Shown here piece after piece: positions 446-20,146 of a stretch of 22,362 nucleotides of DNA. The position numbers and the translations under genes were made by a program. Under the pieces are notes generated by a model, which did not search any database, had not been told where the DNA came from, and saw only the letters and a program-made list of their open reading frames with translations. The stretch spans positions 1 through 22,362 of the forward strand of contig JAJDTQ010000177.1 in the NCBI GenBank assembly GCA_022827045.1. The letters run 5' to 3'. This stretch comes from Candidatus Binatia bacterium. GTDB taxonomy: Bacteria; Desulfobacterota_B; Binatia; UBA9968; JAJDTQ01. Numbering within the stretch: the stretch's first letter is position 1; each line of letters begins with the position of its first letter.

Positions 446-484
446 CCGCGCGATAATCCGCCGGTCGCTTCGCGGGGCGCGCGG
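446..484. terminator. GC-rich inverted repeat between convergent genes
   Basis: CCGCGCG (446-452) and CGCGCGG (478-484) are perfect 7-bp arms around a 25-nt loop. They lie in the 98-bp gap between two convergent stop codons (427 and 526). The position suits a bidirectional transcription end. There is no T-run, so an intrinsic terminator is not certain. Confidence 0.35.
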
Positions 485-525
485 CAACGGGATGTGAAGG
501 TTCGTTGTGGGCGCGGCCCCGGGGC

Positions 526-1497: not shown

Positions 1498-1563
1498 TGT
1501 GCACCTCGTGATTTTTGCGGCAGCACCAACATGTAGCACAGAGGGCCCTGGTTGCCACATGGA

Positions 1564-1592
1564 TTGACGCACGCGGACCTTTCCAATAGACG
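1564..1592 (+). promoter_or_regulatory. Possible sigma70-type promoter for the FrsA-like hydrolase
   Basis: TTGACG at 1564-1569 (5 of 6 to the -35 consensus), a 17-bp spacer, and TAGACG at 1587-1592 (3 of 6 to the -10). The -10 is weak. The location, 57 bp before the chosen start, is sensible. Confidence 0.3.
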
Positions 1593-1618
1593 TGAAACGC
1601 GGTCCGCCGCATTCACGT
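1590..1618. promoter_or_regulatory. Imperfect inverted repeat in divergent promoter region
   Basis: ACGTGAAACGCGG (1590-1602) is mirrored by CCGC-AT-TCACGT (1607-1618), with one base missing in the right arm. It lies just downstream of the candidate promoter and before the perfect palindrome at 1622-1637. It could be an operator half or a leader hairpin. Confidence 0.35.
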
Positions 1619-1621
1619 CGC

Positions 1622-1637
1622 TCGTGTCGCGACACGA
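1622..1637. promoter_or_regulatory. 16-bp perfect palindrome, candidate operator
   Basis: TCGTGTCGCGACACGA is a perfect 16-bp palindrome. It ends one base before the GGAGG ribosome-binding site (1639-1643) of the FrsA-like hydrolase and lies in the divergent region shared with the luciferase-like gene. This size and symmetry fit a dimeric repressor site (for example of the TetR or GntR type). No regulator gene is visible in the window. Confidence 0.45.
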
Positions 1638-1648
1638 TGGAGGTGATG

Positions 1649-2779: not shown

Positions 2780-2789
2780 GGCAAAACGC

Positions 2790-2817
2790 GTAGGGGCTAC
2801 CGGCCGGCCGCCCCTAC
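2790..2817. repeat. 28-bp palindromic intergenic repeat, copy 1
   Basis: The stretch begins GTAGGGGC, has ACCGGCCGG at its centre and ends GCCCCTAC. It matches the copy at 14259-14286 in 26 of 28 positions. The two differences (T at position 9, C at position 19) break one mirrored base pair, so this copy is slightly imperfect. It sits 11 bp after the stop of the FrsA-like gene, in the gap between convergent genes, where it can also act as a transcription-terminating hairpin. It looks like a REP/MITE-type dispersed repeat. Confidence 0.7.
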
Positions 2818-2865
2818 CGGAGATTGCCCCGCGGGCACTGCCGCTGCACGGGCTCCCGGACTTCC

Positions 2866-4122: not shown

Positions 4123-4238
4123 AGTAGATTCCTCGGCGGCGTCCTTGCCGGCGGCCGAATTCGTGCGCGGTTCCAGGACGAATCCACGAGGCAGGATGCC
4201 CGGGGAGGATGAGACATGCGGGAGCAAGGGGCACGCTG

Positions 4239-5294: not shown

Positions 5295-5411
5295 AACGGA
5301 GCATCTGCGCCCTACTCTCGCTTTCCGCCTTGCGCCCCTCCGGCAATTCCGCTAGTCGTCAGTTCCTGCCGGACGCAACACCGCCAAGGCGTCCATCCAC
5401 CCGAAACGGCC

Positions 5412-6047
5412 ATGCTTCGACTCTACGACAACCAGCTCTCCGGTAACGGCTACAAGCCGCGGTTGCTGCTCGCCCATCTGGGCCGGACTTACGAACGCGT
5501 CGAGGTGGATATCCTGATCGGCGAAACCCGCACGCCCGAGTTTCTTGCCATCAATCCCAACGGACGCATCCCGGTGCTGATCCTGGAGGACGGCACCTGC
5601 ATTGCCGAATCCAACGCCATCCTGTTCTTTTTGGCGGAGGGCTCGCGCTTCCTTCCCTCCAGCCGGCTGGCGCGAGCACTATGCCTGCAGTGGATGTTCT
5701 TCGAGCAATACAGTCACGAGCCCTGCATCGCGGTGGCGCGTCACTGGATTCAACACGTGGAGATGACCGAGGCGCAGCACGCCCAGCTTCCGGCCAAGCA
5801 GGAGGGCGGGCGGGCCGCGCTGGCCGTCATGGAACGGCACCTCGGCGCGGCGGACTGGTTCGGGGGCGACGGCATGAGCATCGCCGACATCGCCCTCTTC
5901 GCCTACACCCACGTGGCGGACGAAGGCGGATACGACCTGGCGGACTATCCGGCGGTCAACGCCTGGCTCGCCCGCGTCGCGGCGCAACCCGGCCACGTCC
6001 CGATGAATCCCGCGCCCACGGGCGTCGTGGAACCGGCCAACCCCTGA
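5412..6047 (+). CDS. Glutathione S-transferase family protein
   Basis: A 211-residue two-domain GST. The N-terminal thioredoxin-like domain (about 1-80) shows LYDNQLSGNGYKPRLLL with a Ser10/Asn12 region at the usual catalytic position, NPNGRIPVLIL with the cis-Pro (Pro54), and AESNAIL with the glutathione-binding Glu66-Ser67. The all-helical C-terminal domain includes GDGMSIADIALFAYTHVADEGG, the N-capping-box motif of GSTs. Bacterial GSTs in catabolic clusters can cleave ethers (LigE/LigF/LigG), isomerise ring-cleavage products, or detoxify electrophiles. Its position between a quinone-reductase-like gene and an extradiol dioxygenase suggests such a catabolic role, but its class cannot be assigned here. 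The ribosome-binding site is weak. The 117-bp upstream gap shows no clear element. The next gene starts 40 bp downstream. Confidence 0.88.
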   Translation: MLRLYDNQLSGNGYKPRLLLAHLGRTYERVEVDILIGETRTPEFLAINPNGRIPVLILEDGTCIAESNAILFFLAEGSRFLPSSRLARALCLQWMFFEQYSHEPCIAVARHWIQHVEMTEAQHAQLPAKQEGGRAALAVMERHLGAADWFGGDGMSIADIALFAYTHVADEGGYDLADYPAVNAWLARVAAQPGHVPMNPAPTGVVEPANP

Positions 6048-6087
6048 GCCGCTCCGGCTACACCAACAAGACCAAGGAGACGAATCG

Positions 6088-6948
6088 ATGGCGCAACTCG
6101 TCACCATGCTCGGCATCACCCACAACCCGTTCATGCCCAGGCTGTTCAAACAGGCACAGCAGCCGCCGGGGGCGGCCAAGGTCCAGGAACGGATCGCGAT
6201 GATGCGGGCCAAGCTGGCGCATCACAAGCCGGACGTGCTGATCACCATCGGCAACGACCACCTGCACCAGTTCTTCATGGACAACATGCCGGCCTTCATG
6301 ATCGGGAAGATGGACCGGTTCCACGGCACCTTCTACGACGAGGTGCGGGAGTTCGGCCTGCCGGAGTGCGATGTCCCGGGCGACCTGGAGATGTGCAACC
6401 GGCTCCTGGAGGGCGCTTACGAACGCGGCGTGGACTTCGCTTATTCCAGCGAACTCACCATCGATCACTCCATCGTGGTGCCCATGCTGTTCGTCAGGCC
6501 GGAGATGGACATCCCCATCGTCCCGATCCTGACCAACTGCATCGCGCCGCCGCTCCCCACCGCCCGGCGCTTCTACGAAGTGGGAGGGGCCATCCGTTCG
6601 GTCATCGACAGCCTGCCCGACGGGAAGCGCATCGGCGTCCTGGTGAGCGGCCACCTGTCGCTGGAGGTGGGCGGGCCGAAGCAGTTCGAGCGGCGCCTGA
6701 TGGACCCCGACTTCGACGCCCGCGCCGTGGGGTGGATCGCTACCGGCGACATCGACGCGGCCGCGCGCGACTGCAACCTGGAGCAGATGGTCCCCTCGGG
6801 CAACATGACCATGGGTTTCCTGAACTTCCTGATGGCCATGGGCGTGGCCAAGGGGGCGTCTCCCACCCACGCGGAGGGGCTCGACGCGGGGTTCCCGGCG
6901 GTTCCGTTCTTCGCCTGGGAGAGGGACCAGGAAGGAGCGGGACTGTGA
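6088..6948 (+). CDS. Class III extradiol ring-cleavage dioxygenase, LigB-like catalytic subunit
   Basis: A 286-residue protein of the LigB superfamily, which cleaves catecholic rings next to the hydroxyls with non-haem Fe(II). Candidate metal ligands and catalytic residues sit where the SYK-6 LigB structure places them: His12 in GITHNPF, His58 in GNDHLH, Glu232 in NLEQM as third ligand, His189 in SGHLSLEVGG as catalytic base, and His127 in DHSIVVP in the conserved strand. AAGGAGA precedes the ATG at good spacing. It overlaps the next gene by four bases. In protocatechuate 4,5-dioxygenase the LigB partner is a small LigA subunit, and here that partner follows, so a two-subunit enzyme is likely. 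Protocatechuate, gallate or another substituted catechol could be the substrate. Confidence 0.88.
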   Translation: MAQLVTMLGITHNPFMPRLFKQAQQPPGAAKVQERIAMMRAKLAHHKPDVLITIGNDHLHQFFMDNMPAFMIGKMDRFHGTFYDEVREFGLPECDVPGDLEMCNRLLEGAYERGVDFAYSSELTIDHSIVVPMLFVRPEMDIPIVPILTNCIAPPLPTARRFYEVGGAIRSVIDSLPDGKRIGVLVSGHLSLEVGGPKQFERRLMDPDFDARAVGWIATGDIDAAARDCNLEQMVPSGNMTMGFLNFLMAMGVAKGASPTHAEGLDAGFPAVPFFAWERDQEGAGL

Positions 6949-7256
6949 GCAAGTACCTGGTCAACAAGTTCATGCACGTGGTGAACATGAACGAGGAGGC
7001 GGAGGACGCCTACGTGGAGAACCCGCCCGGCTTCGTCGCCCGGTGGGAAAAGGGGGAACGCCTCAAGTTCACGCCGGAGGAGCGGCGCGCATTGGAGCGG
7101 CGCGACTACGGCAGCCTCTACGCCATGGGCGCGCACCCGTTCCTGCTGTGGAGCTTCACCGAGGCCATCTGGCGCAGGGAGATGGACCGGGAGGAGCTGG
7201 TGAAGGACTACAAGGCCAAGGCCGCCGAGGTGGGATACCCGGACTTCGAGAGCTGA
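6945..7256 (+). CDS. LigA-like small (alpha) subunit of extradiol dioxygenase
   Basis: A 103-residue, mostly helical protein (VNKFMHVVNMNEEAEDAYVENP, then FTPEERRALERRDYGSLYAMGAHPFLLW) resembling the LigA subunit that covers the active site of LigB-type dioxygenases. The start is a GTG at 6945 that overlaps the stop of the catalytic subunit (GTGA), with AGGAG eight bases upstream. No in-frame ATG starts earlier than the tenth codon. This overlap implies translational coupling and a fixed subunit ratio. The order, catalytic subunit first, is the reverse of the SYK-6 ligAB operon as I recall it. The last gene of the forward run; it converges with the ABC binding-protein gene. Confidence 0.8.
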   Translation: MSKYLVNKFMHVVNMNEEAEDAYVENPPGFVARWEKGERLKFTPEERRALERRDYGSLYAMGAHPFLLWSFTEAIWRREMDREELVKDYKAKAAEVGYPDFES

Positions 7257-7355: not shown

Positions 7356-8618
7356 TTACTTCATCTTGAGCTTGGACCGCACCTCGGCGGCCAGCTTCTT
7401 GATCCTGGCCTCGGGATCGGCGCCTTCGATGACATCCACGAGCGCGGCCCCGATCAGGTCCGTGACCGCCACACCCTCTGCGCCGGGATACGCGTACCAG
7501 GGGCCCGAATAGGCCGCCACCTGGGCGTGGGCCCGCCGTGAGTTCTCGTTACGCGAGTAGAAGTCGCCGAGATAACTCTTGTCCTTGAGCACCAGTTCGT
7601 TGGTGGGCGCATACCCCGTGTTCTCCACCACGATCTTGGCGCCTTCCGGACCGGTGGCGAACTGGATGTATCTCCACGCCGCCGCCTGCTTCTTGGGATC
7701 CCGTGTCAGCATGACGATGGCCGAGCCGCCGGTGGGGAAATAGACGGTGGACTTGTCCTTCGCGGCCACGACGAGCGGCAGCAGCGTCACCTTGAAACGA
7801 TCGCCGGCCCCGGCGACGACCCGCGTCAGGTAGGAAGAGCTGTCGATGTAGATCCCCAGGGTGCCCGCGGCAAAAGCCTGGCGCGCGGCCTTGCCGCCGT
7901 AGGTCTTCATGCCCGCTTCCTTGCCGAGACGCGAGTAGAGCCTCGCGGCATTGATGCCGGCCTCGCTGTCGAAGGTAATGTTGGACTCGTCTTCGTTCAT
8001 GGGCCGGCCGCCGTAGGAGCCCAGCATGCTCTGGAAACGCCAGTCATGCGCCGACACCCACACACCGTCGATGTTCGGGCCGAGGGCGCTGATCTTGGTC
8101 GCCAACCGGATCAGGCCGTCGAAATCGGTCGGGAACTTGTCCACGGATCCGCCAGCCTTGGCCACCAGCTCCGGGTTGACGTAGATCACAAGTGTCGAGG
8201 CCGAAGCGGCGATGGCGTACTGTTTGCCCTGGTACTGGCCGAGCGAACGCAGAGCAGAGGTGTAGCCCTTGGCCTCGAACTTGGCGGCGTCGCCGACGAA
8301 GGGATCCAGTTCCACCGCCAGCCCGCGGGCCTGGAGGATCCGCCAGCGATTCAGACCGAGGAACGCCACGTCGGGCAGCTTCTTGGCCACGGCTTCCCGG
8401 AGCAGGCGCTGAACCCCCGCGGCGTAGTTCTCCGCGGGCGCCTGGATCTCGAGCTTGATGTCCGGGTTCTTTTTCATGAACGCATCGGCGACCAGTTCCT
8501 GGACCTTCGCCCAGAGGTTGGGGTGGGCGTAGTGCAGGGTCAGCGTTACGTCCGCCGCCTTGGCCGGACCCGCGGCCAGGAAGCTCGCCACCAACATCGC
8601 AAAGAGTATCCTTCTCAT
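7356..8618 (-). CDS. ABC transporter extracellular solute-binding protein (family 1, carbohydrate-type)
   Basis: A 420-residue periplasmic binding protein with an N-terminal signal peptide (MRRILFAMLVASFLAAGPAKA, cleavage near residue 21 after an Ala-x-Ala). It has features of the family 1 (maltose/glycerol-3-phosphate-type) receptors: an initial LTLHYAHPN strand, KLPDVAFLGLNRWRI, LVIYVNPELVAKAGG in the hinge region, and FPTGGSAIVMLTRDPKKQAAAWRYIQFATGPEG near the C-terminal lobe. The ATG at 8618 follows AAAGGAG. The open frame continues upstream into the permease gene, but that part is not protein-like. It is the last gene of the operon, 62 bp after the MalG-type permease. The cargo is unknown; a sugar, polyol or sugar-phosphate is usual for the family. 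Confidence 0.9.
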   Translation of the reverse strand: MRRILFAMLVASFLAAGPAKAADVTLTLHYAHPNLWAKVQELVADAFMKKNPDIKLEIQAPAENYAAGVQRLLREAVAKKLPDVAFLGLNRWRILQARGLAVELDPFVGDAAKFEAKGYTSALRSLGQYQGKQYAIAASASTLVIYVNPELVAKAGGSVDKFPTDFDGLIRLATKISALGPNIDGVWVSAHDWRFQSMLGSYGGRPMNEDESNITFDSEAGINAARLYSRLGKEAGMKTYGGKAARQAFAAGTLGIYIDSSSYLTRVVAGAGDRFKVTLLPLVVAAKDKSTVYFPTGGSAIVMLTRDPKKQAAAWRYIQFATGPEGAKIVVENTGYAPTNELVLKDKSYLGDFYSRNENSRRAHAQVAAYSGPWYAYPGAEGVAVTDLIGAALVDVIEGADPEARIKKLAAEVRSKLKMK

Positions 8619-8638
8619 CGCAAAACTCCTTTCTTTTC

Positions 8639-8652
8639 GCCCGTATCCGGGC
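8639..8652 (-). promoter_or_regulatory. Small hairpin in the leader of the binding-protein gene
   Basis: GCCCG (8639-8643) and CGGGC (8648-8652) enclose a 4-nt loop in the 62-bp gap between the permease stop and the binding-protein start, just upstream of the purine-rich ribosome-binding region. Such hairpins can stabilise the downstream or upstream mRNA segment. Function not shown. Confidence 0.3.
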
Positions 8653-8680
8653 CGTGCCTTCGTTGCTGCGGTTGCTGGTC

Positions 8681-9511
8681 TCATCCCTTGAGTCCACTCA
8701 TGGTGATACCCTGGACGAACTTGCGTTGCGCCGCCAGGAACGCGATCACCAATGGTGCTGTAACCACGGTTGCGGCCGCCATCAAGGGGCCAAAGTCGGA
8801 TCCCGCCTCCTCGTCGCGAAAAAAGAGTATGCCTCGGGGAGGTGTCGCGAGGTTCGGATCGCTGATGGCGATCAGCGGCCAGAACAGGTCGTTCCAATGG
8901 GCGACCACGGAGAAGATGGCGAAGGCGCTCACCGCGGGCCAGGCGTTGGGAAACGCGATGCGCCATACGATGGCCGTCTCGCTCAATCCGTCGATGCGCG
9001 CGGCATCGATGATCTCGGCGGGCACGGTGGCAAAGAACTGCCGGAACAGGAAGATGCCGAAGACCGAGGCGATGAACGGGACGATCAACGCCGGGTAGGT
9101 GTCCAGCAGGCCGATCTCCGCGAAGCCCAGGAATACCGGGATCGCGGTCACGTGGTAGGGTACCAACAGGCCGGCCAGCACCAGGCCGAAGATCAACCAG
9201 CGAAGCCCGAACTGCCGGTGAGCCAGGGCGTAGGAGCAGGGCACCGCAATGACGACCTGGAACACCAGGATGCCGGCGCAGACCACGACGCCGTTGAGCA
9301 GGAACCGGTGCAGCGGAACTTCCGCGAACGCCTTGGCGTAGTTGCGCCACTCGATGCGGCTGGGGAACAGATCGATCCCGGGAGCGAAAATCTCCGCGGC
9401 GGGCTTGACCGACAGGGAAAGCATCCAGAGAAAAGGCAGCAGCACGAGCGCCGCGCCCACCAGAAGGAGTGCAAGGATGACTGCCTTACCAACTGGGAAG
9501 CGGGAGTTCAT
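8681..9511 (-). CDS. ABC transporter permease, MalG/UgpE type
   Basis: A 276-residue inner-membrane permease with about six hydrophobic segments. The first is VILALLLVGAALVLLPFLWML. The cytoplasmic EAA loop, which contacts the ATPase, reads EIIDAARIDGLSETAIVWR and then IAFPNAWPAVSA. The C-terminal AAQRKFVQGITMSGLKG is typical of MalG-type subunits, where QGL/QGI..GA(L)KG ends the protein. Its ATG overlaps the stop of the other permease (ATGA at 9508-9511), indicating translational coupling. With the MalF-type partner it forms the channel of the importer. Confidence 0.92.
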   Translation of the reverse strand: MNSRFPVGKAVILALLLVGAALVLLPFLWMLSLSVKPAAEIFAPGIDLFPSRIEWRNYAKAFAEVPLHRFLLNGVVVCAGILVFQVVIAVPCSYALAHRQFGLRWLIFGLVLAGLLVPYHVTAIPVFLGFAEIGLLDTYPALIVPFIASVFGIFLFRQFFATVPAEIIDAARIDGLSETAIVWRIAFPNAWPAVSAFAIFSVVAHWNDLFWPLIAISDPNLATPPRGILFFRDEEAGSDFGPLMAAATVVTAPLVIAFLAAQRKFVQGITMSGLKG

Positions 9512-10413
9512 CGGTAGTGCACCCGCCGTTCGAGCACGCCGAACTGCACGAGCGTGAGCGTCAGGACGAAAGCGAAAAAGACCATCGTGACGGCGCTGGC
9601 GTATCCCGCCTTGAAGTAGACGAACCCCTCCCGGTACATGGCATAGACCAGCGTGTCGCTCGCGAACCCCGGACCGCCCTGCGTCAGCGTGGCCACGGTT
9701 TCAAAAACACGGAATGCGCGCGCCGCCGTGACCACGAGAACGAAGAGCGTCGTCGGTCCGAGCAGCGGCCAGGTAACGGTCCAGAACCGGTCCCAGCCCG
9801 GACGCACGCCGTCGATCTCGGCGGCGTCATAGAGGTGCTCCGGAATCGCGGTCAGACCGGCGAGGAAGAGAACCATGTTGTAGCCCACGGTCTCCCAGAT
9901 GCCGATCACCGCCAGCGAATAGAGAACGATCCCGCGGTCGGAAAGCCACTCCTGCCCCGGCAGTCCTACCAGTCCCAGAACCTGATTGAAGAGCCCGACG
10001 TTCGGATGCATGAGCATCTGCCAAACCGTCGCCATGGCCACCAGCGTCCCGGCCACCGGCATGAAGTAGGCGGTGCGGAGCACTCCCGCCAGCGTCGCGT
10101 TCCAGCTCGCGATCCGGTGAACGCCAAGGGCGACCAGCAAGGCCAGGATCATCGAGGCGGGCATGACGATGGCGACGTAGATCAGAGTGTTCACCACGGC
10201 CCGCCGACCGATGGGATCGGTGAACAGCACGGTGTAGTTCTCGAGCCCGATCCAGGCGAAGGCCGGTGCGCCAAGCTGGTAGTCGGTGAACGAGAGCACC
10301 GCGACGGCGAGCACCGGTCCGAAAATCAACACGAGCATGCCTACGGTGGCCGGACCCACCAACCACGCATCGGTCAGCGCTTCGCCCACTCGTGGCGGCA
10401 GCCGGAGCCTCAT
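9508..10413 (-). CDS. ABC transporter permease, MalF/UgpA type
   Basis: A 301-residue permease with six predicted membrane spans and the EAA motif EHLYDAAEIDGVRPGWDRFW followed by VTWPLLGP. The QGGPGFASDTLVYAMYREGF segment is diagnostic of UgpA/MalF-like subunits. The frame opens at 10464, but the ATG at 10413 overlaps the ATPase stop (ATGA, 10410-10413) and starts MRLRLPP just ahead of the first span, so it is preferred. Both overlaps in this operon show tight coupling of ATPase, MalF-type and MalG-type subunits. Confidence 0.9.
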   Translation of the reverse strand: MRLRLPPRVGEALTDAWLVGPATVGMLVLIFGPVLAVAVLSFTDYQLGAPAFAWIGLENYTVLFTDPIGRRAVVNTLIYVAIVMPASMILALLVALGVHRIASWNATLAGVLRTAYFMPVAGTLVAMATVWQMLMHPNVGLFNQVLGLVGLPGQEWLSDRGIVLYSLAVIGIWETVGYNMVLFLAGLTAIPEHLYDAAEIDGVRPGWDRFWTVTWPLLGPTTLFVLVVTAARAFRVFETVATLTQGGPGFASDTLVYAMYREGFVYFKAGYASAVTMVFFAFVLTLTLVQFGVLERRVHYR

Positions 10414-11576
10414 GAGGCCGGTCCCGTCGCCGTCGCAACCCGGGGGGACTTCGGCGCCAAGCACGCCTCCAACCGCGCTCCCGTGGACCCTTCAAAAACG
10501 TGCGCGTGGTCCGGGTTGAAGTTGAAACGGATCTCTTCACCGGGTTGGTGAAGCGCCGAATGGGTGGGGAGGATGGCGCGGATCGTCCGATCGCCGCGCA
10601 ACGCCACGGTTGCCACGGCCTCCGAACCGAGGTACTCGATCCGGACGACACGTCCGGCGAGCAGGCCGTCGCGGGCCGGGACCAGCGCCTCCGGCCGCAG
10701 CCCGATGACCACCGTGTCAAGGTCCGGACGTGTGTCGAAAGCGAACGAGGTGAACGGTTCCGGGAGTTCACCGGAACGGGCCGGGACCTCGACTAGGTTC
10801 AGGGGGTGATCGCCGACGAAGGCGGCGATCTCCCGGGTGGCGGGACGTTCGTATATCTCTCGCGGCGTGCCGGATTGAACGATGGTTCCGTCCATCATCA
10901 CAGCTATCTGGTCGGACATGCTCATGGCCTCGGCCTGGTCGTGGGTCACGTATACGAATGTGCGGCCGGTGCGTTTGTGCAGATCCACCAGCTCGCCCCG
11001 CATCTGGAGGCGCAACTTGACGTCCAGATTGGACAGCGGCTCGTCCAGCAGGAAGGCGACCGGATCGCGCACCAGCGCCCGGGCCACCGCGGCGCGCTGT
11101 TTCTGACCGCCGGAGAGCTGGCTGGGCTTGCGGTCGAGCAAGGTCTCTATGTCCAGAAGGGTCGCGACTTCGCGCACCTTGCGCTGGTGACCTGCCGAAA
11201 GGCGTCGGGCGGAGGTGAGCAGACGGTCCATCAAGGGCAGGCGTTGCCAGACGCTCATGTTCCGCATCGCCAAGGGAAGGTTGATATTCTGGCGAACGGT
11301 CATGTGGGGATAGAGCGCGTAGGACTGAAACACCATGGCAATGTTGCGTTCCGCGGCTCTCAAGCCGGCAACGTCGCGGCCGTCGATCAGCACGTGGCCC
11401 GAGGTCTGCGGCTCAAGCCCGGCGATGATCCGAAGGGTTGTGGACTTGCCGCAGCCGGATGGCCCAAGAAGTGTCGTGAAGGTGCCTTCGGCGATCGTAA
11501 GGGATACCCCGCCGAGTGCGGTGGTGGCGCCGTAACACCGGTAGACATCCTTGAGCTCGATCCTGCCTGACCCCAT
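10410..11576 (-). CDS. ABC transporter ATP-binding protein (UgpC/MalK type)
   Basis: A 388-residue ATPase that powers the importer. Walker A GPSGCGKST (38-46), Q-loop Gln84 in VFQSYALYPHMTV, signature LSGGQ (154-158), Walker B VAFLLDE (173-179) with the D-loop SNLD, and switch His212 in VTHDQAEAMS. The C-terminal part (about 245-388) is the TOBE/OB regulatory domain of the MalK family, with IGLRPEAL. The segment between the Q-loop and signature (WQRLPLMDRLLTSARRL) is somewhat longer than usual. The ATG has GGAG upstream. It is the first gene of the ABC operon; the binding protein is last, the reverse of the common order. Confidence 0.93.
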   Translation of the reverse strand: MGSGRIELKDVYRCYGATTALGGVSLTIAEGTFTTLLGPSGCGKSTTLRIIAGLEPQTSGHVLIDGRDVAGLRAAERNIAMVFQSYALYPHMTVRQNINLPLAMRNMSVWQRLPLMDRLLTSARRLSAGHQRKVREVATLLDIETLLDRKPSQLSGGQKQRAAVARALVRDPVAFLLDEPLSNLDVKLRLQMRGELVDLHKRTGRTFVYVTHDQAEAMSMSDQIAVMMDGTIVQSGTPREIYERPATREIAAFVGDHPLNLVEVPARSGELPEPFTSFAFDTRPDLDTVVIGLRPEALVPARDGLLAGRVVRIEYLGSEAVATVALRGDRTIRAILPTHSALHQPGEEIRFNFNPDHAHVFEGSTGARLEACLAPKSPRVATATGPAS

Positions 11577-12140: not shown

Positions 12141-14216
12141 CTACGGGTATCTGACGATCCTGACGTCCACCGCCGCCACGCCCGCGCCCGCCTCCTTGAC
12201 CATCAGCGGGTTGATCTCCAGGTCGCTCAGGTGGGTGCGATGCGCGGCGAAGAGTCCCGACAGGCCGGTGATCGCCCGCACCACCGCATCCACGTCCCGG
12301 GGCTTCTGTCCCCGGACTCCCTCGAGGATCCCGTAGCCCTTGAGCTCCCGAAGCATGGCCCGCGCGTCGTAGGCGGTGACCGGGACGAGACGCAACGCCA
12401 CGTCCTTGAGCACCTCCACGAAGATCCCGCCCAGGCCCACCATCACGAAGGGGCCGTACTGCGGATCGACCCGGGCGCCGAGGATGACCTCGGTGCCGCT
12501 GACCATTTCCTGCACCAGCAGCTTCGACCCCGCGGGTCCCTTGGCGAGCAACTCCGACCCTGCCTGTTCGACACCGGCGGCGGATTCCAGCCCCAACACC
12601 ACGCCGCCCACTTCGGTCTTGTGCACCACCTCCGGCGACTGGAGCTTCAACACCACGGGGTAACCCATCTCCCCTGCACTGGCGGCGGCGTCCCCGGGAG
12701 TACCGACCACGGCTTCCCTGGGCGGTGTGAGTCCGCAGGTGGCCAGCTTTTCCTGCCAGGCGGCGCCCTCCAGCTCTTCCGGCCGGCCGTCGGCCGCGGG
12801 CACTTCTGGAATCCCCACGCGCCGGCGATGACCGTAGCCGCCCAGGCCGTTGAGCGCCCGCAGCGTGGCCTTAATGCCCTGCAGGTGCGGAATCTCGGAA
12901 GCTTCCTGGAAGGCCCGGCTCTCGTCCTGGAGGCTGTAGGTGGAGCGCGCGTGGGCGACGATGGGCTTGTCGATGCTCCGGGAAATGTTCTTGAGCAGGT
13001 CCGGGTTGCGCTTCTCACCGAATCGCGGCAGCTCGCCGTGGATCGCCAGGAGGTCCACGCCGTCGTCCTCGGCATGGATGCGCACAATCTCGGCGAAGGT
13101 GTTTTCGTTGCCGAAGCCGGCGACGCCGCATTCCAGCGGGTTTTCCACCACCAGGTCGTCGGGGATGAGGGGGCGCAGCGCCTGGTTGGACGCATCGCTC
13201 AGGGCGGCCAGCTCGATGCCCACCTCCTCGATGTGGTCCAGCAGGATCCCTTTCATGCCGCCGGAGTTCACCACGATGGCCGCGCGCCCGCCCCGGGGAC
13301 GCCGGCCCGGCAGGAACGCCAGGGTCATCTCGGTCAGGTCCTCCAAGCTGTGGCAGCGCACCATGCCGTAGCGGTCGCAGGCGGCCGAGAAGACCTCGTC
13401 GTCGCCCGCCAGCGAGCCGGTGTGGGAGATGGCTTGGCGCTTACCCATCTCCGAGCGCCCGAGCTTCACCACGATAACCGGCTTGTCGGCTTCCAGCGCC
13501 CGGGCCGCCATCTCCAGGAACATCTTCGGGCGGCGGATGCCTTCCACCATGAGCAGGATGATCTTCGTGTCGGCATCGTCGATGAGAAAGGACATGTAGT
13601 CGACGACGTCCAGGCTCACCTCGTTGCCGCTGGAGATGGCGTAGCTGAAGCCGACGCCACGCTCGGCCGCGCCCTTCATCCAGTTGCCCAGGGAGCCGCC
13701 GCTCTGGAACACCGCGGCCACGGGACCGGGCCTGAGCAGTGGCTGGCGCTGCGCGTAGGTCATCATGCGCTGGTTCACCGACGCCGCGCCCATGCAGTTG
13801 GGGCCGCAGCAGACGATGCCGCTCTCCTCGCAGAACTCGGCCAGCTCGCGGCCACGCTCATGGCTCTTGGGATCGGTCCCCTCGCCGAAGCCGGCGCTGT
13901 AGATGGTGGCCGCCTTGACTCCCAGGGGCGCGGCCTGCTTCAGGGTTGGGACCACCGCCCGTGTGGGCACCAGCATCAACAGGTGCTCGGGGGTCTCCGG
14001 AAGCGCTTCCAGGCTCGGGTAGCAGGGCGCATCCCATAGTTCCTCATAGTTGGGATTGATCAGGAAGACGTTGCCGGGGAACTCGGCCGCCTTGAGGCTA
14101 TGGAAGAGCAGGTTGGGCCAGTTGCCCTTGGGCGAGGCGCCGACGATGGCTACGCTCTTCGCGTGCAGCAAGTTGGCCGCCGGGAGAATGGTGGTTCTTT
14201 CCGTCGCTTGGGTCAT
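12141..14216 (-). CDS. ADP-forming acyl-CoA ligase (acetate/feruloyl-CoA-ligase type), fused alpha-beta
   Basis: A 691-residue single-chain NDP-forming acyl-CoA ligase, which activates an acid with ATP and CoA to give acyl-CoA, ADP and phosphate. Domain order: CoA-binding Rossmann domain (about 15-145; SVAIVGAS, CGPNCMG at 137-143), two succinyl-CoA-ligase-like domains (about 160-450), then an ATP-grasp domain (about 485-690; VVLKLQSPEVVHKTEVGGV). His265 in SHTGSLAG and His532 in VHKTEVGG match the two histidines that relay phosphate in characterised members. Sphingobium SYK-6 FerA, a feruloyl-CoA synthetase, belongs to this superfamily as I recall. With HCHL-like genes upstream on the same strand, an aryl- or aryl-propenoate-CoA ligase role is plausible. 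Acetate, propionate or other acids are alternatives. Confidence 0.9.
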   Translation of the reverse strand: MTQATERTTILPAANLLHAKSVAIVGASPKGNWPNLLFHSLKAAEFPGNVFLINPNYEELWDAPCYPSLEALPETPEHLLMLVPTRAVVPTLKQAAPLGVKAATIYSAGFGEGTDPKSHERGRELAEFCEESGIVCCGPNCMGAASVNQRMMTYAQRQPLLRPGPVAAVFQSGGSLGNWMKGAAERGVGFSYAISSGNEVSLDVVDYMSFLIDDADTKIILLMVEGIRRPKMFLEMAARALEADKPVIVVKLGRSEMGKRQAISHTGSLAGDDEVFSAACDRYGMVRCHSLEDLTEMTLAFLPGRRPRGGRAAIVVNSGGMKGILLDHIEEVGIELAALSDASNQALRPLIPDDLVVENPLECGVAGFGNENTFAEIVRIHAEDDGVDLLAIHGELPRFGEKRNPDLLKNISRSIDKPIVAHARSTYSLQDESRAFQEASEIPHLQGIKATLRALNGLGGYGHRRRVGIPEVPAADGRPEELEGAAWQEKLATCGLTPPREAVVGTPGDAAASAGEMGYPVVLKLQSPEVVHKTEVGGVVLGLESAAGVEQAGSELLAKGPAGSKLLVQEMVSGTEVILGARVDPQYGPFVMVGLGGIFVEVLKDVALRLVPVTAYDARAMLRELKGYGILEGVRGQKPRDVDAVVRAITGLSGLFAAHRTHLSDLEINPLMVKEAGAGVAAVDVRIVRYP

Positions 14217-14309: not shown

Positions 14310-14825
14310 CTAGAACAACTCGATACCGAGGAAGCGGAACAGCTCTCCCTCGTACCACGAAGCGTGGATGACCTGGTCGAACACCCCGTACAGAAAGGCG
14401 ATGGCGCACGCGGTCAGGAACAGCGAAAGGACCCATCCCTCATTCGACCCCACCTTCAGGTAGAGGAAGACGAACAGCGGCAAGGCGATGAGCTGTCCGA
14501 GAAGCCACGTGCCCACGAATATTCCGACGAGCCACGCACAGATAACGAAGGTCCGTTTCAGGGCTTCGCCACTGCGGAGGTTCACGTCGAGGTAAAGGTC
14601 CGCGGCTCCGCCCGGACCTTCGGGAGCCTTCGCCTCCCCTCCCTTTATCCCGGTCCACAGCGAAAGAATCACGGCGATGATACAGCCGGAAACCCCGATG
14701 AGCGTGGGGAACAGGGCGGATTTCGCGGGCCATTCCCTGGCCGTGACCACGCCGGCGGCGAACATGACCGCCATGGCAAGTATGAACAGGCTTTCAACGT
14801 AGTGCTCGCGGATCCGTGGTACCAT
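14310..14825 (-). CDS. Tripartite tricarboxylate transporter small membrane subunit, TctB family
   Basis: A 171-residue membrane protein with four hydrophobic segments: the first about residues 12-28 after a short cytoplasmic N-terminus (VESLFILAMAVMFAAGVV), the second PTLIGVSGCIIAVILSLW, then FVICAWLVGIFVGTWLLGQLIALPLFVFLYL and LSLFLTACAIAFLYGVF. This layout, and a soluble loop between spans 2 and 3 (about 62-88), match TctB. It begins 1 bp after the tctA stop, so the two are translationally linked. Order here is tctC-tctA-tctB rather than the familiar tctC-tctB-tctA. Confidence 0.85.
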   Translation of the reverse strand: MVPRIREHYVESLFILAMAVMFAAGVVTAREWPAKSALFPTLIGVSGCIIAVILSLWTGIKGGEAKAPEGPGGAADLYLDVNLRSGEALKRTFVICAWLVGIFVGTWLLGQLIALPLFVFLYLKVGSNEGWVLSLFLTACAIAFLYGVFDQVIHASWYEGELFRFLGIELF

Positions 14826-14826: not shown

Positions 14827-16311
14827 TCAAACCTCGCCGGGTTGCTGCCGACGCATCTGCGCCCGCGTCGCGTAGTAAAGCGTCGCCAGGGTCATCAGGA
14901 TCAGGATGATGCAGATGGGTCGCTCCCACAACCACGCCCAGCCGTAACGGCTGACGCTGATGTCGAGGTAGCGCTCCATGATGGGACCCAGGACGATGCC
15001 CAGGGCGATGGGCGGCCTCGGCCAACCCCACCGCTTCATGAGGTAGCCCAGCACACCCAGGCCCATCAGCACGAGCCAGTCACCGAGCTCCTGCGTCGCC
15101 ATCCAGGATCCCATGAACACCAGCACCAGGATGATCGGGATCAAAATGCTGCCTCGTATGGTCGTGATCTTGGCCAGCTGGTTGGTGCAGCCCATCAGCA
15201 GGATCGCTGTCAGCACGTTGGCGATCACCAGCGCCCAGATCACCGAGAACGTAACGTCGAGGCGCGTGCTAAGGAGTTCGGGACCCGGGTAGATGCCGTG
15301 GATCAGGAAAGCGCCCAGCAGGATGGCCATGGTGGCGCTGCCGGGAATGCCGAAGGCGATGGTCGGGATCAGAGAACCGCCCTTCATGGCGTTGTTGGCG
15401 CTCTCCGGGGCGATGACGCCGCGTATCTCGCCCTTGCCGAACTCCGCCTCCGGGTCCTTGTTAGACTGGACCGCGTGGCCGTAGGCCACCCAGTCGACGA
15501 TGCTGGCGCCGAGACCGGGGATGAAGCCGATGTAGGCGCCGATGACCGAGCACCGGAGCGCCAGCCACCAGTTTCGAAAGGCGTCGCGCACCCCATCCCC
15601 GAGGCCTTTCCCCATCTCCGGCACCTCCGAGAGGGTGCCGCGTCGCACCGCGAGCTCCACCACCTCGGGAAGCGAGAACAGACCCAGCACGCAGGGGACG
15701 ATCGGAAACCCCTCCAGGAGATACGGCACGCCGAACCAGAAGCGCGGGATGCCGTCCTGCGGCGAATAGCCGATCATGGAGAACTGCAGGGCCAGCAGAC
15801 CCACCAGAATGCCCTTGGCCGGGGCGTTGCCGCTCAGGGCGCCCACCATGGCCATGCCCAGGACCCCCAGGAGGAAGAACTCCGGGGCGCCGAACGAAAG
15901 CACCAGGGGGCTCAGGATCGGGATCGAGCACACCAGCAGGATGGCGCCGACGACGCCGCCGAAACCCGACACCGTATAGGCGGCGCCGAACGCCCGGGCG
16001 GCCTCACCCTTCTTCGCCAAGGGGTAGCCGTCCATGATCGTGGCCTGGGAGCCGGCGGTACCCGGAACGCCCAGCAGAACCGACGATATGGTGTCCGAGG
16101 TGGAGGTGATGGCGTACATGCCCATGAGCAGGGCCATGGCCTCGTAGGCCTGGAGATCGAACGTGAAAGGCAACAGGATGGCCATCCCGGAGAGTCCGGA
16201 GAGGCCGGGGACCATGCCGAAGAAAACACCCAGACTGATACCCAGCAGCAGATAGCCGAAGGCCGGCCACGCGAGGATACCCTGAAGTCCCAGTTGGGCT
16301 GCTTCTAGCAT
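14827..16311 (-). CDS. Tripartite tricarboxylate transporter large permease, TctA family
   Basis: A 494-residue polytopic membrane protein (about 11-12 spans), the main translocation subunit of a TTT uptake system, usually driven by an ion gradient. It has the family's signature stretches: GVFFGMVPGLSGLSG in the first half, then LLGVPGTAGSQATIMDGYPL with KKGEAARAFGAA, and the mirrored IGFIPGLGASIVDW plus APESANNAMKGGSLIPTIAFGIPGSATMA. The second glycine-rich block mirrors the first, consistent with an inverted-repeat architecture. No Shine-Dalgarno sequence precedes the ATG; instead a small GGGGTC-A-GACCCC hairpin (16320-16332) and the larger hairpin at 16347-16388 lie upstream. Substrates in the family are citrate, other carboxylates and aromatic acids such as terephthalate. 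Confidence 0.93.
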   Translation of the reverse strand: MLEAAQLGLQGILAWPAFGYLLLGISLGVFFGMVPGLSGLSGMAILLPFTFDLQAYEAMALLMGMYAITSTSDTISSVLLGVPGTAGSQATIMDGYPLAKKGEAARAFGAAYTVSGFGGVVGAILLVCSIPILSPLVLSFGAPEFFLLGVLGMAMVGALSGNAPAKGILVGLLALQFSMIGYSPQDGIPRFWFGVPYLLEGFPIVPCVLGLFSLPEVVELAVRRGTLSEVPEMGKGLGDGVRDAFRNWWLALRCSVIGAYIGFIPGLGASIVDWVAYGHAVQSNKDPEAEFGKGEIRGVIAPESANNAMKGGSLIPTIAFGIPGSATMAILLGAFLIHGIYPGPELLSTRLDVTFSVIWALVIANVLTAILLMGCTNQLAKITTIRGSILIPIILVLVFMGSWMATQELGDWLVLMGLGVLGYLMKRWGWPRPPIALGIVLGPIMERYLDISVSRYGWAWLWERPICIILILMTLATLYYATRAQMRRQQPGEV

Positions 16312-16400: not shown

Positions 16401-17492
16401 CTATCTCTTGGCCGCGAGCTTGCGCCCTTCTTCTATGTAGTGCGCGCGGAACTTTCTCAGCTCCTCGCCCGCCGTCTTCCACGGCACCATGGCATTCTGG
16501 ATGTCCTTGGCCCCGGTCAACATCCCCGGCTCGACGCCGACGCCCTTCTTGTACTCGGCCCGGAATTCGGGGTCCTTGTTCATGGAAGCGAACGCCGAGC
16601 GAATCGCGTCCACGGCGGCCTGGGGCACCCCCGGCGGCGCCAGAATCTGGCGGTAGCTGGAGTGGACCTGAAAGAGCTGCCACAGCGGCCCGGAAGGTTC
16701 CTTGCCTGAAAGAAGCTTGACGAATTCGCGTGCGGGCACGCCCGGCGCGATGGCGGGAATCTGCTTGTCACCGCCGTGCCAGAGGGGAACGGCCGTCCCC
16801 TTGTCTACCGCGATGGGCTTCACGCGGGGAATGTAGAACGGCGTGCTCCCGTCGATGTAGTCGAGTTCGCCGCGGAGGAACGCCGACAGAAGATCCGCCG
16901 ACCCCTGGTATCCGGTGACGTACTTGAAGTTCACGCCTGCCAACTCGAACAACGTGCGGAACTTGAGGTCCTTGGCGCTGTCGGCGCGGAATCCGCCCAC
17001 GTTGAAGCTCTTGACGTTCTTGAGGTCTGCCGGCTTCTTGAGCGGCGGATCGAGGTCCGTCCTCGCCACTCCGACGCTGTACACGGGCGTGAACATGACC
17101 GGAATGATCTCCTCCATGTTGGCCCGGAGACCTGCTTTCTTGGGGTCGCCCACGAACCATTCCGTGTAGCGGCCGCTGGCGGTCTGGCAACCCATTACGG
17201 TGCCGTTGCGCCGCGCCCGCTCATAGATCCAGTTCATGGCCAGGTTGCCGCCGCCGCCCGCTCGGTTCTGGATCACGATGGTGGGGTCGCCCGCAAGGTG
17301 CTTCTTCAGATGACGGGCATAGATCCTGCACTCGATGTCCGTGGGTCCGCCCGCCGAGTAGTCGACGATGAGCTTCAAGGTCTTGCCCTGGTAGAACGGC
17401 TTGTCGGCCGCAGACGCCTGCGCCCCGAGCAAGAGCCCGAACACGAGCACGGCACAAACCAAAAACACGGCTTTCTGTAGTGTGGACTTCAT
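16401..17492 (-). CDS. Tripartite tricarboxylate transporter substrate-binding protein, TctC/Bug family
   Basis: A 363-residue periplasmic receptor with a signal peptide (hydrophobic core FLVCAVLVFGLLLGA, cleavage after about residue 28, AQASA). The mature part starts FYQGKTLKLIVDYSAGGPTDI, the TctC/Bug pattern where the beta1-alpha1 glycine-rich loop binds a substrate carboxylate. IVIQNRAGGGGNLAMNWIY is the usual second block, and LAPPGVPQAAVDAIRSAFASM the late conserved motif. It is some 30-40 residues longer than typical Bug proteins. AAGGAGGA precedes the ATG. It leads the transporter genes, 112 bp after the upstream hydratase-like gene, with a strong hairpin in between. Confidence 0.93.
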   Translation of the reverse strand: MKSTLQKAVFLVCAVLVFGLLLGAQASAADKPFYQGKTLKLIVDYSAGGPTDIECRIYARHLKKHLAGDPTIVIQNRAGGGGNLAMNWIYERARRNGTVMGCQTASGRYTEWFVGDPKKAGLRANMEEIIPVMFTPVYSVGVARTDLDPPLKKPADLKNVKSFNVGGFRADSAKDLKFRTLFELAGVNFKYVTGYQGSADLLSAFLRGELDYIDGSTPFYIPRVKPIAVDKGTAVPLWHGGDKQIPAIAPGVPAREFVKLLSGKEPSGPLWQLFQVHSSYRQILAPPGVPQAAVDAIRSAFASMNKDPEFRAEYKKGVGVEPGMLTGAKDIQNAMVPWKTAGEELRKFRAHYIEEGRKLAAKR

Positions 17493-17604: not shown

Positions 17605-18441
17605 CTAGGAAGCCTTGTTGACCCGGGCCATGGGGCCCAGACCCGGCTTGTAGGTCTTGTCGTCGATGAACTGCTTGATCCCTTCGTCGTAGCCGCGCTC
17701 CGCGTCCGCCTGCTTGATCCAGGCGCCCTTGGCGGCCAGGTAGTCCTCGGCCTGGGAGTAGTCCATGCCGCGCACCAGCTTGTACGCCTGCTTGGTGGCC
17801 CGCAGCGCCCAGGGGTTCTTCTCCATGAGTTTCTTCGCCAACTTCACGGTCTCGTCCCGGAGCTGGTCCGCCGGCACCGAATAGTTCACCAGCCTCATCT
17901 CCGCGGCCTTCTTGCCGTCGAACGGGTCGCCGGTCATGGCGTGATAGAGACCGTCGCGGAGCGACATCATGTCCGTGACCACCCGGCTCACGAGACCGCC
18001 GGGCAGGATCCCCCAGTTCACCTCGGACAGGCCGAAGAGCGCGTCGTCGGACGCGATGGCGAAGTCACAGGCCACCAAAGGCGTGAACGCGCCGCCGAAG
18101 CAGAAACCGTTCACCATGGCGATGGTGGGCTTGGGGAAGGTGAAGAGCTTGCGCCAGCGCCACTCCTGGCTGCACCAACTCGCCTGACGCCGCAACTGCG
18201 GGTTCTTGTCGCCCTCGCGGAAGTATTCCTTCAGGTCCTGGCCGGCGCACCAGCTATTGCCGGCGCCGGTGATGACCATCACCTGCGTTCCCGGGTCTCC
18301 CTCGGCTTCCGTTACCGCGTCGTACATGTCGAAGTGGAGCTGCGGACTCATGGCGTTCCGCTTCTCCGGACGGTTGAGGATCACCCAGGTGATGCCGTCC
18401 TCCTTCTCCACCAGGACCGTCTTGTATTCCTTCGTTGCCAT
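17605..18441 (-). CDS. Enoyl-CoA hydratase/isomerase superfamily, hydroxycinnamoyl-CoA hydratase-lyase-like (copy 1)
   Basis: A 278-residue crotonase-fold enzyme. It resembles Pseudomonas HCHL (Ech), which hydrates feruloyl- or p-coumaroyl-CoA and splits it to an aromatic aldehyde and acetyl-CoA: LNRPEKRNAM, CAGQDLKEYFRE, KPTIAMVNGFCFGGAF, FGLSEVNWGI and KQFIDDKTYKPGL are nearly shared. Glu140 matches HCHL catalytic Glu143 and Gly117 matches oxyanion Gly120. It differs from HCHL at Gln68 (Met70) and Thr120 (Ser123), keeps Tyr73 (Tyr75), and has Ala236 where HCHL has Tyr239. About 90% identical to the copy at 18541-19377. AAGGAGGT precedes ATG 18441; the frame opens at 18465. It may have its own promoter. 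The aryl substrate is inferred. Confidence 0.85.
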   Translation of the reverse strand: MATKEYKTVLVEKEDGITWVILNRPEKRNAMSPQLHFDMYDAVTEAEGDPGTQVMVITGAGNSWCAGQDLKEYFREGDKNPQLRRQASWCSQEWRWRKLFTFPKPTIAMVNGFCFGGAFTPLVACDFAIASDDALFGLSEVNWGILPGGLVSRVVTDMMSLRDGLYHAMTGDPFDGKKAAEMRLVNYSVPADQLRDETVKLAKKLMEKNPWALRATKQAYKLVRGMDYSQAEDYLAAKGAWIKQADAERGYDEGIKQFIDDKTYKPGLGPMARVNKAS

Positions 18442-18488
18442 TAAACGTATACCTCCTTGAAACATTCACATGATTGAGAGTCCTGCCA

Positions 18489-18517
18489 ACTCTATGCAGT
18501 CGGGTTGGCGGAGTCAA
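18489..18517 (-). promoter_or_regulatory. Candidate sigma70 promoter between the two hydratase-lyase copies
   Basis: On the minus strand, TTGACT (18517-18512; 5 of 6), a 17-bp spacer and TAGAGT (18494-18489; 4 of 6) lie about 48 bp before ATG 18441, in the 99-bp intergenic gap. This is the best promoter-like pair I found in the window, and it suggests copy 1 can be expressed apart from copy 2. Confidence 0.45.
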
Positions 18518-18540
18518 GGCACAAGTTCCGTCGAGCCGCG

Positions 18541-19377
18541 TCAGGAATCCTTGTTGACCCGGGCCATGGGACCCAGACCCGGCTTGTAGGTCTTGTCGTC
18601 GATGAACTGCTTGATGCCCTCGTCATAGCCGCTCTCCCGGTCCTGGATCTTGATCTGGGCGCCCTTGGCGGCCAGGTAGTCCTCGGCCTGGGAGTAGTCC
18701 ATGCCGCGCACCAGCTTGTAGGCCTGCTTGGTGGCCCGCAGCGCCCACGGGTTCTTCTCCATGAGCTTCTTCGCCAGCTTCACGGTCTCGTCCCGGAGCT
18801 GGTCCGCTGGCACCGCGTAGTTGACCAGCCTCATCTCCGCCGCCTTCCTGCCGTCGAACGGGTCGCCGGTCATGGCATGGTACAGGCCGTCGCGCAGGCT
18901 CAACACGTCGGTGACCACGCGGCTCACGAGACCGCCGGGGAGGATGCCCCAGTTGACCTCGGAGAGGCCGAAGAGCGCGTCCTCGGACGCGATGGCGAAA
19001 TCACAGGCGATCATGGGGCTGAAGGCGCCGCCGAAGCAGAAACCGTTTACCATGGCGATGGTGGGCTTGGGGAAGGTGAAGAGCTTGCGCCAGCGCCACT
19101 CCTGGCTGGCCCAGCCCACCTGCCGCTGAAACTCGGGGTTCTTGTCGCCCTCGCGGAAGAACTCCTTGAGGTCCATGCCGGCGCACCAGCTGTTGCCCGC
19201 GCCGGTGATGACCAGCACCTGGGTTTCCGGGTCGCCCTCGGCTTCGGTCACCACGTCGTACATGTCGAAGTGGAGCTGCGGGTTCATTGCGTTGCGCTTC
19301 TCCGGACGGTTGAGGATGGCCCAGGTGATGCCGTCTTCTTTCTCCACCAGCACCGTCTTGTATTCTTTCGTTGCCAT
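18541..19377 (-). CDS. Enoyl-CoA hydratase/isomerase superfamily, hydroxycinnamoyl-CoA hydratase-lyase-like (copy 2)
   Basis: A 278-residue crotonase-fold protein, same length as copy 1 with no indels and about 27 differences. Here the active-site pattern is complementary: Met68 and Ser120 as in Pseudomonas HCHL, but Phe73 where HCHL has Tyr75. Glu140 and Gly117 are conserved; Ala236 again replaces HCHL Tyr239. Substitutions cluster around residues 82-90 and 241-249. GAGGAGG lies seven bases before the ATG. It starts 28 bp after the dienelactone hydrolase stop, so those two are probably co-transcribed. Likely role: hydration and/or retro-aldol cleavage of an aryl-propenoyl-CoA; a plain hydratase is the alternative. 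Confidence 0.85.
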   Translation of the reverse strand: MATKEYKTVLVEKEDGITWAILNRPEKRNAMNPQLHFDMYDVVTEAEGDPETQVLVITGAGNSWCAGMDLKEFFREGDKNPEFQRQVGWASQEWRWRKLFTFPKPTIAMVNGFCFGGAFSPMIACDFAIASEDALFGLSEVNWGILPGGLVSRVVTDVLSLRDGLYHAMTGDPFDGRKAAEMRLVNYAVPADQLRDETVKLAKKLMEKNPWALRATKQAYKLVRGMDYSQAEDYLAAKGAQIKIQDRESGYDEGIKQFIDDKTYKPGLGPMARVNKDS

Positions 19378-19405: not shown

Positions 19406-20146
19406 CTACGCCTTCAAGTGCCTGCCCAGGAAAGCCAGGCTCTTGGGCCAGATGTCCTTGGCCGAGGCCTCGTGGTAGCTCGGCCGGTCGTCGCTGAAGA
19501 ACGCGTGGCCCGCATCCTCGTAGAAGTGCCATTCGTAGTCCACGTTGTTCGCCTTGAGCGTCGCCTCGATGGTGTCGAGGGCTTCCTGCGGGATGCCCTG
19601 GTCCTGCCCGCCCCACACGCACTGCATCGGGATGTTGATGTTGTTCCCCTGGGTCACGGGCTCCACCGGGCTCTTCTCGCCGCGCTGGCCGCCGACGATC
19701 TGGCCGCCGTAGTACAGGCTGCTGGCCGCCAGGCCCGGGCAGTTGCACGCGGCCATCCACGACACCCTGCCGCCGAAGCAGTAGCCGATGATCCCCACCC
19801 GGTCCGGGTCCACGTCGTCGCGCCCCTTGGCGTAGGCGATGGCGCGGTTCAGGTCGTCGATGATCTTGGTGTCGTAGAGGGTGCCGCGGGCTGCGAAGGC
19901 GGCGTCGCGATCGGTGCTGGGAATGACCCGCTCGTCCAGCCTGTAGTAGAGGTCCGGTGACATGGCCACGTAGCCCTCGTTGGCGAACCGCTCGGTGACA
20001 TCCTTCATGTGGGCGTTCACGCCGAAGATCTCCATGATCACCAGCAGCGCCGGCTTCTTGCCGTCACCGTCGGGTGCGGCCACGTAAAGGTCCATGGACT
20101 TGCCGTCTTCGGCGGAGATACCCACCGTGGCGGTATTGATGCTCAT
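19406..20146 (-). CDS. Dienelactone hydrolase family protein
   Basis: A 246-residue alpha/beta hydrolase with the cysteine triad of dienelactone hydrolase: Cys123 in GYCFGG (as in Pseudomonas DLH), Asp182 in GGQDQGI, His214 in AGHAFF, and the Glu39 of MEIFG that in DLH contacts the nucleophile Cys. Length is close to the family norm. DLH opens 4-carboxymethylene-butenolide to maleylacetate in the (chloro)catechol branch; relatives hydrolyse other lactones or esters. AGGAGGAA precedes the ATG. It heads the long minus-strand gene row and is divergent from the ThrH-like gene. With an aromatic pathway nearby, hydrolysis of a ring-cleavage lactone is reasonable, but no ortho-cleavage gene is visible. 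Confidence 0.9.
   Translation of the reverse strand: MSINTATVGISAEDGKSMDLYVAAPDGDGKKPALLVIMEIFGVNAHMKDVTERFANEGYVAMSPDLYYRLDERVIPSTDRDAAFAARGTLYDTKIIDDLNRAIAYAKGRDDVDPDRVGIIGYCFGGRVSWMAACNCPGLAASSLYYGGQIVGGQRGEKSPVEPVTQGNNINIPMQCVWGGQDQGIPQEALDTIEATLKANNVDYEWHFYEDAGHAFFSDDRPSYHEASAKDIWPKSLAFLGRHLKA

Follow-up and report, generated by a model that had tools for sequence, protein, structure and literature searches.

Twin genes of the HCHL family

The window, by which we mean the whole 22,362-nucleotide stretch analysed here from a Candidatus Binatia bacterium (contig JAJDTQ010000177.1), carries on its reverse strand two adjacent genes of the p-hydroxycinnamoyl-CoA hydratase/lyase (HCHL) family. 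They belong to a same-strand run that reads, in order, dienelactone-hydrolase-like gene, copy 2, copy 1, TctC, TctA, TctB and NDP-forming CoA ligase (Table 1). Each copy encodes 278 residues; the two are offset by 936 bp, align with zero indels and differ at exactly 27 residues and 87 nucleotides (NG86 dN 0.060, dS 0.317), which bears out the geometry given in the initial annotation of this DNA, where about 27 differences had been counted. Copy 1 can also be read as a longer frame starting at 18465, and its start equivalent to that of copy 2 is preceded by an AAGGAGG site.

Table 1. Features of the pair locus in the window
Feature	Position	Strand	Remarks
Acyl-CoA ligase, NDP-forming acetate-CoA ligase family	12141..14216	-	PF13380, PF13607, PF13549
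TctB-like transporter subunit	14310..14825	-	PF07331, 28.7 bits, just below cut-off 29.1
TctA-like transporter subunit	14827..16311	-	PF01970
TctC-like solute receptor	16401..17492	-	PF03401; downstream of copy 1 in 8/8 pair loci, cut by contig end in two
Copy 1	17605..18441	-	HCHL-family hydratase/lyase; Gln68-Tyr73 (ancestral) pocket type
Copy 1, codons 68-90 block	18172..18240	-	Q68 Y73 Q82 L83 R84 A87 S88 C90
Copy 2	18541..19377	-	HCHL-family hydratase/lyase; Met68-Phe73 (derived) pocket type; upstream member of pair
Copy 2, codons 68-90 block	19108..19176	-	M68 F73 E82 F83 Q84 V87 G88 A90
Dienelactone-hydrolase-family gene	19406..20146	-	PF01738; upstream of copy 2; 8/8 pair loci

With scores of 392 bits (copy 1) and 397 bits (copy 2), both proteins pass the curated cut-off of 276 of NF006588 (p-hydroxycinnamoyl-CoA hydratase/lyase), a model that also accepts relatives just 51-53% identical to them. 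They are 55-56% identical to the solved HCHL of Pseudomonas fluorescens (PDB: 2j5i, 2vss, 2vsu), the value for copy 1 against 2j5i being 56%. The catalytic Glu143 aligns with Glu140 in both copies, in agreement with the initial annotation, and the equivalents of Glu143, Gly120 (oxyanion) and Trp146 are identical in all 18 proteins of the nine pairs described below. The alignment of Gln68/Met68, Tyr73/Phe73 and Thr120/Ser120 (copy 1/copy 2) with HCHL Met70, Tyr75 and Ser123 also proved right. The numbering of Ser123 is backed by the solved entries, 2vsu having Ala where 2j5i has Ser; we take 2vsu to be the S123A mutant of HCHL. A study of HCHL mutants by Bennett et al. in 2008 reportedly dealt with the roles of Tyr239, Tyr75, Glu143 and Ser123.

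Distribution and age of the pair

A scan of genome contigs returned eight loci, six of which, in records titled Deltaproteobacteria or Candidatus Binatia, carry the pair. Within a single Candidatus Binatia family (that of genome G004) the pair is present in eight of the nine genomes, in every case adjacent and with copy 2 upstream (8/8); these eight together with the window make up the nine pairs. An order-level search gave matches at E<=1e-100 in 26 of 35 genomes, namely the eight pair genomes and 18 of the 26 others in the order. Each of these 18 has one close relative at 68-73% identity; a further match, at 57%, occurs in one of them, and in several there are HCHL-family genes of greater distance. 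When 148 genomes across the class were searched (E<=1e-115), the same 26 came out. Within the genomes searched, the duplication is old and family-specific. The initial annotation had spoken of a recent duplicate, a description that does not suit a pair common to eight of nine genomes of a family, the similarity of the copies stemming in part from gene conversion in some lineages (see below). Nor is the pair confined to this assembly, a case that had been named as refuting the reading: eight other genomes carry it, and the conserved orthologous pairs with the same residue split that had been proposed as a check do exist, with sites 68 and 73 split alike in all nine pairs, the window included.

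The pair genomes with named records are metagenome-assembled, so that an artefact of assembly or strain mixture has to be considered as the source of the pair; its recurrence in eight genomes, two of which have it on chromosome-titled contigs of 4.21 and 4.09 Mb, and the conservation of its flanks make such an origin most improbable. The names of the isolates (RHO, APA) suggest that these relatives came from sponges.

A block of fixed differences at residues 68-90

Our set of family proteins comprises 69 sequences (64 distinct), 51 from databases and 18 from the nine pairs. When typed by residues 68, 73, 84, 87 and 90, 35 are of the copy-1 type, 34 of the copy-2 type and none is mixed. Fixed differences, that is, columns with no residue common to both types, occur at eight of the 102 variable columns (68, 73, 82, 83, 84, 87, 88 and 90), five of which also define the types, and all eight lie within residues 68-90. 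The nine pairs taken alone have 11 such columns, the additional ones (122, 123 and 277) not being fixed in the 69 proteins. Eight of these 11 fall within one stretch of 23 residues, a clustering that none of 20000 draws from the 67 variable columns attained, and in none of the nine pairs do both copies have the same block type.

The split at three sites put forward in the initial annotation therefore holds for the equivalents of Met70 (residue 68) and Tyr75 (residue 73), which are fixed, and fails for that of Ser123 (residue 120), where two of the nine copy-2 proteins have Thr. The wider comparison also speaks against Ser123 as part of the split, with Thr at this position in the solved 6p5u, an enoyl-CoA hydratase/aldolase from a lignin-degrading consortium, and Gly in FerB, the feruloyl-CoA hydratase/lyase of Sphingomonas paucimobilis SYK-6 (PDB: 7xwc); by our numbering offset, the vanillin-making Streptomyces Ech has Thr there as well (PMC10487757). 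Six fixed sites (82, 83, 84, 87, 88 and 90) come in addition to those named before.

At 68 and 87 the ancestral state is that of copy 1, as it probably is at 73, because the 18 single-copy relatives share Gln68 (18/18), Ala87 (18/18) and mostly Tyr73 (15/18). At position 90 these relatives have Ala (18/18), which is the state of copy 2 and differs from the Cys of copy 1. One protein at 73% identity (P0056) has Met68, Phe73, Gln84, Val87 and Gly88, a set of residues that suggests convergence on the copy-2 state. Over a wider tree of 164 rows, neither 84 nor 87 changed in significant correlation with 68 (median p 0.25 each); counted over seven independent pairs, same versus opposite changes with site 68 came to 3.5/0.0 for 84, 3.4/0.2 for 87, 2.5/0.4 for 73 and 2.0/1.5 for 90, none of them significant.

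Placement of the block in the fold and comparison with characterized enzymes

A predicted model of copy 2 (pLDDT 93.6) has its best match in 2j5i, with an rmsd of 1.2 over 245 columns; an earlier model from a narrow alignment was dropped at a pLDDT of 52.3. In the retained model residue 68 stands just ahead of a helix at 70-75, which is followed by a helix at 81-100, and the block is predicted to take in the oxyanion residue, helix 2 and the beginning of helix 3. In the methylthioacryloyl-CoA hydratase DmdD (PDB: 4izc), which is 25% identical and acts on another substrate, the pocket is described (PMC3660561) as comprising the loop between beta5 and alpha2, the helices alpha2 and alpha3 and further elements, to which the neighbouring subunit adds its C-terminal part, and the residues lining it include Leu71 (oxyanion hole), Phe86, Cys90 and Trp93. 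An exact mapping of the DmdD pocket onto 83, 87 and 90 was dropped on account of an offset of 1-3, and the correspondence is claimed for the secondary-structure elements alone. For the Streptomyces Ech, a docked homology model places M78, G129, E152 and Y248' at the feruloyl moiety, whose binding site is said to include Y83 (PMC10487757); by a constant offset of 8-9 we match M78, Y83, G129, E152 and Y248' to 70, 75, 120, 143 and 239. By homology to these pocket elements of relatives, the block would lie at the acyl pocket. The earlier claim that the differing residues are near the catalytic centre is in keeping with this for 68 and 73, whose equivalent elements line the pocket in solved or modelled relatives; Ser123 falls outside the split.

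A second option raised in the initial annotation was that the copies divide the reaction on a single substrate, one mainly hydrating and the other cleaving the C-C bond. The fixed differences do include oxyanion residue 70, beside the reacting carbonyl; however, the equivalents of Glu143, Gly120 and Trp146 do not vary among the pair proteins, and the DmdD residue equivalent to 70 works through its main-chain amide, according to the DmdD report (PMC3660561), such that we regard a divided reaction as quite improbable.

Outside the block, both copies in the window have Ala at the position of Tyr239. In HCHL this tyrosine presumably binds the phenol hydroxyl of the substrate. It is present in all 120 Pseudomonas-type relatives, and in none of the 18 pair proteins, the 18 single-copy relatives, 67 database proteins at about 67-74% identity or 107 more distant ones. 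The use of its absence as proof against HCHL function was dropped once FerB (Ile) and 6p5u (Ala) had been aligned; the absence excludes nothing, because these solved enzymes lack the tyrosine too. Copy 2 of G006 (locus L006) has Met rather than Ala at residue 236, the Tyr239 position. With 52% identity, 6p5u shares its Ala239 and Thr123 with copy 1 but differs in having Met70 and Tyr75 together. This combination, which we treat as HCHL-defining by a criterion of our own, is likewise found in solved HCHL and in FerB (45-47% identity), and in neither copy, copy 1 being Gln70-Tyr75 and copy 2 Met70-Phe75. The copies further differ from HCHL in forming a tandem pair. The likeliest reading is that they are a pair of HCHL-family acyl-CoA hydratase/lyases whose acyl pockets differ, a function predicted from their sequences.

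Gene conversion outside the block

Mean differences between the paralogues are highest of all segments within the block (pS 0.377, pN 0.147), as against pS 0.208-0.338 and pN 0.031-0.057 in the other segments; within each type the non-synonymous difference in the block is 0.024-0.029. In G005, where the pair lies on the 4.09-Mb contig, pS amounts to 0.03-0.04 over residues 156-278 versus 0.41 in the block, and the two copies share a matching run of 67 of the 254 variable sites. Runs of this kind were reached in 0 of 5000 permutations for G005, 2 for G010 and 3 for G004, the sole ones of nine uncorrected tests to pass the Bonferroni bound. G006 (30), G002 (32), G001 (34) and G009 (41 of 5000) are significant only nominally, and the test is not significant in G003 (230/5000) or the window pair itself (640/5000). 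Homogenised paralogues outside a protected segment, our criterion for concerted evolution around a selected island of divergence, are found in G005, G010 and G004. Gene conversion is thus clear in some lineages, the window pair itself being without significant signal.

Trees of the separate segments show the same mosaic. The copy types separate in the tree of the block with support of 100/99 and are weakly apart in that of residues 96-155 (70/90); in the C-terminal tree they are intermixed, with both G005 copies joined at 100/100 and separate clades rejected (p-AU 0.029). Separate clades are not rejected for the N-terminal segment (p-AU 0.09). The proteins P0028 and P0046, whose contigs are listed at equal length, differ at 15 residues, ten of them in residues 66-91, five before and none after.

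Given that local divergence can hinder conversion, the block, with its highest synonymous difference, might be seen as a relic too diverged to be converted, both copies doing the same job and being retained for dosage. A neutral relic should drift, whereas here eight replacements are fixed in 69 proteins and the non-synonymous difference within types stays low; neither a pair with equal block types (0/9) nor a mixed protein (0/69) occurs. This makes the dosage explanation unlikely.

Gene neighbourhoods and probable substrates

The NDP-forming ligase is present in six of the eight pair loci, the contigs of the other two ending within TctC. Aldehyde dehydrogenase is the usual partner of HCHL, but none is found among the 18 window genes scanned, and the ligase and TctABC adjoin the copies. 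FerB works with an NDP-forming ligase, FerA. Of the 18 single-copy loci, 13 were examined. An acyl-CoA dehydrogenase gene lies next to the HCHL-family gene in 11 of them, and class III CoA-transferase genes come after it in six of the 13; these neighbours were identified by Pfam in one locus and by similarity elsewhere. Such a dehydrogenase lies near the pair in none of the eight pair loci, two of which are short, and relatives of it occur elsewhere in seven of the eight pair genomes at 68-73% identity. G008, the sole family genome without the pair, whether by loss or through incompleteness, has a 70% match to it, and five of 19 matches to this dehydrogenase (in G001, G003, G005, G008 and one of those in G027) contain at least one internal stop codon.

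Relatives on plasmids were sampled through six of 170 matching records, picked for named diversity. In three of them (Sphingobium, Rhodococcus and S. meliloti) the gene has an aldehyde dehydrogenase and a ligase as neighbours, the relative in Sphingobium being placed between an aldehyde dehydrogenase and the pauA ligase gene with no second copy adjacent. In Sagittula the neighbours are a gene of the acetate-CoA-ligase family and two acyl-CoA dehydrogenases, and in Variovorax an AMP-binding gene and the receptor of a tripartite transporter; the sixth record is without annotation. The gene contexts fit a route in which C6-C3 acids, the possible substrates, are activated and their side chain is shortened.

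The dehydrogenase and CoA-transferase neighbours at the single-copy loci, along with the lack of Tyr239, would also suit hydratases of the beta-oxidation type, acting after an acyl-CoA dehydrogenase on non-phenolic acyl-CoA, rather than hydroxycinnamoyl-CoA lyases. We find this possible but somewhat unlikely: the residues of FerB and 6p5u at 239 make the lack of Tyr239 compatible with phenolic substrates, the pair loci are without such a dehydrogenase nearby, and the Acinetobacter hca genes pair an enzyme of this kind with an acyl-CoA dehydrogenase for dihydro-hydroxycinnamates.

Evolutionary scenario and significance

Taken together, these observations make it fairly probable that the pair goes back to an old tandem duplication within the HCHL family, that both copies have been kept for their function, and that selection holds the pocket block apart, the copies serving different acyl groups. 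The ancestor would have been a single HCHL-family acyl-CoA hydratase/lyase of the crotonase fold that was duplicated in tandem. At the main positions of the pocket, copy 1 would retain the state of this ancestor, with Gln at residue 70 of the oxyanion hole and with Tyr75, whereas copy 2 may have gained Met70, Phe75 and other changes of helix 3 before the radiation of the family. Afterwards, in some lineages, conversion made the copies alike elsewhere, above all in their C-terminal half, while purifying selection probably kept the residue 68-90 block distinct. Both copies are probably part of one operon, in which uptake by TctABC would be followed by activation by the NDP-forming CoA ligase. 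A CoA ester of the arylpropenoyl type would then undergo hydration that depends on Glu143, and perhaps retro-aldol cleavage as well, each copy presumably handling acyl groups of a different size or substitution. It is also conceivable, if rather unlikely, that the paralogues form one mixed trimer or hexamer with two kinds of active site. Conversion would then keep the C-terminal interface half alike and the subunits interchangeable, selection would keep the pockets apart, and a single complex could handle two acyl groups.

The family is an ordinary one; less ordinary is its evolutionary state, with two pocket versions kept apart across a bacterial family. The pair amounts to a natural experiment, in which about eight positions on a near-constant HCHL-type scaffold hold two states across the family despite recombination in some lineages, and it yields a short list of residues that probably govern acyl specificity in a family of enzymes with industrial relevance (vanillin). 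It also carries a warning, namely that the automatic label 'p-hydroxycinnamoyl-CoA hydratase/lyase' spans lineages with pockets and neighbours unlike those of the characterized enzymes. The principle of divergence islands persisting despite conversion is already known: the account of Tigriopus GOT1p1/p2 describes a mosaic of homogenised and diverged regions, with the islands taken as pointing to selection for new functions (PMC3728101). That case concerns an animal transaminase, in contrast to the bacterial tandem genes with an island at the acyl pocket discussed here. As far as limited searches show, this case and the residue list are new; 'hydroxycinnamoyl-CoA hydratase' with Binatota or Binatia was absent among the matches listed in a literature search outside which most subscription papers fall, a weak basis for novelty, and the enzyme term was also absent among those listed in a second, broader search.

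Further genes at and beyond the pair loci

Four pair genomes have a third HCHL-family gene elsewhere (G001 C18:4144, G002 C53:6250, G004 C1:2237398 and G005 C1:1207899); all four are 52-53% identical, have Met at position 239 and pass the HCHL model. Another adjacent HCHL-family pair lies beside Tct genes in G032 (L067 8561-10218); identity to copy 1 is 49% for one member and 72% for the other.

In the window, LigA and the CoA ligase are separated by a set of ABC transporter genes (7356-11576) for a solute receptor, two permeases and an ATPase. In G002 (L057), too, the ligase is followed by the ATPase and permease genes of this set, but in G001, G004 and G006 LigA comes directly after the ligase; the set is a lineage-specific insertion or loss. 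Beyond it, positions 8-7253 hold a cluster of an SDR, a luciferase-like monooxygenase, two alpha/beta hydrolases, a zinc dehydrogenase, a GST, LigB and a LigA-like gene. This cluster, which suggests that aromatic ring cleavage is encoded nearby, is largely kept next to the operon in G001, G004 and G006; at this place in G005 its LigAB, GST and dehydrogenase part is missing.
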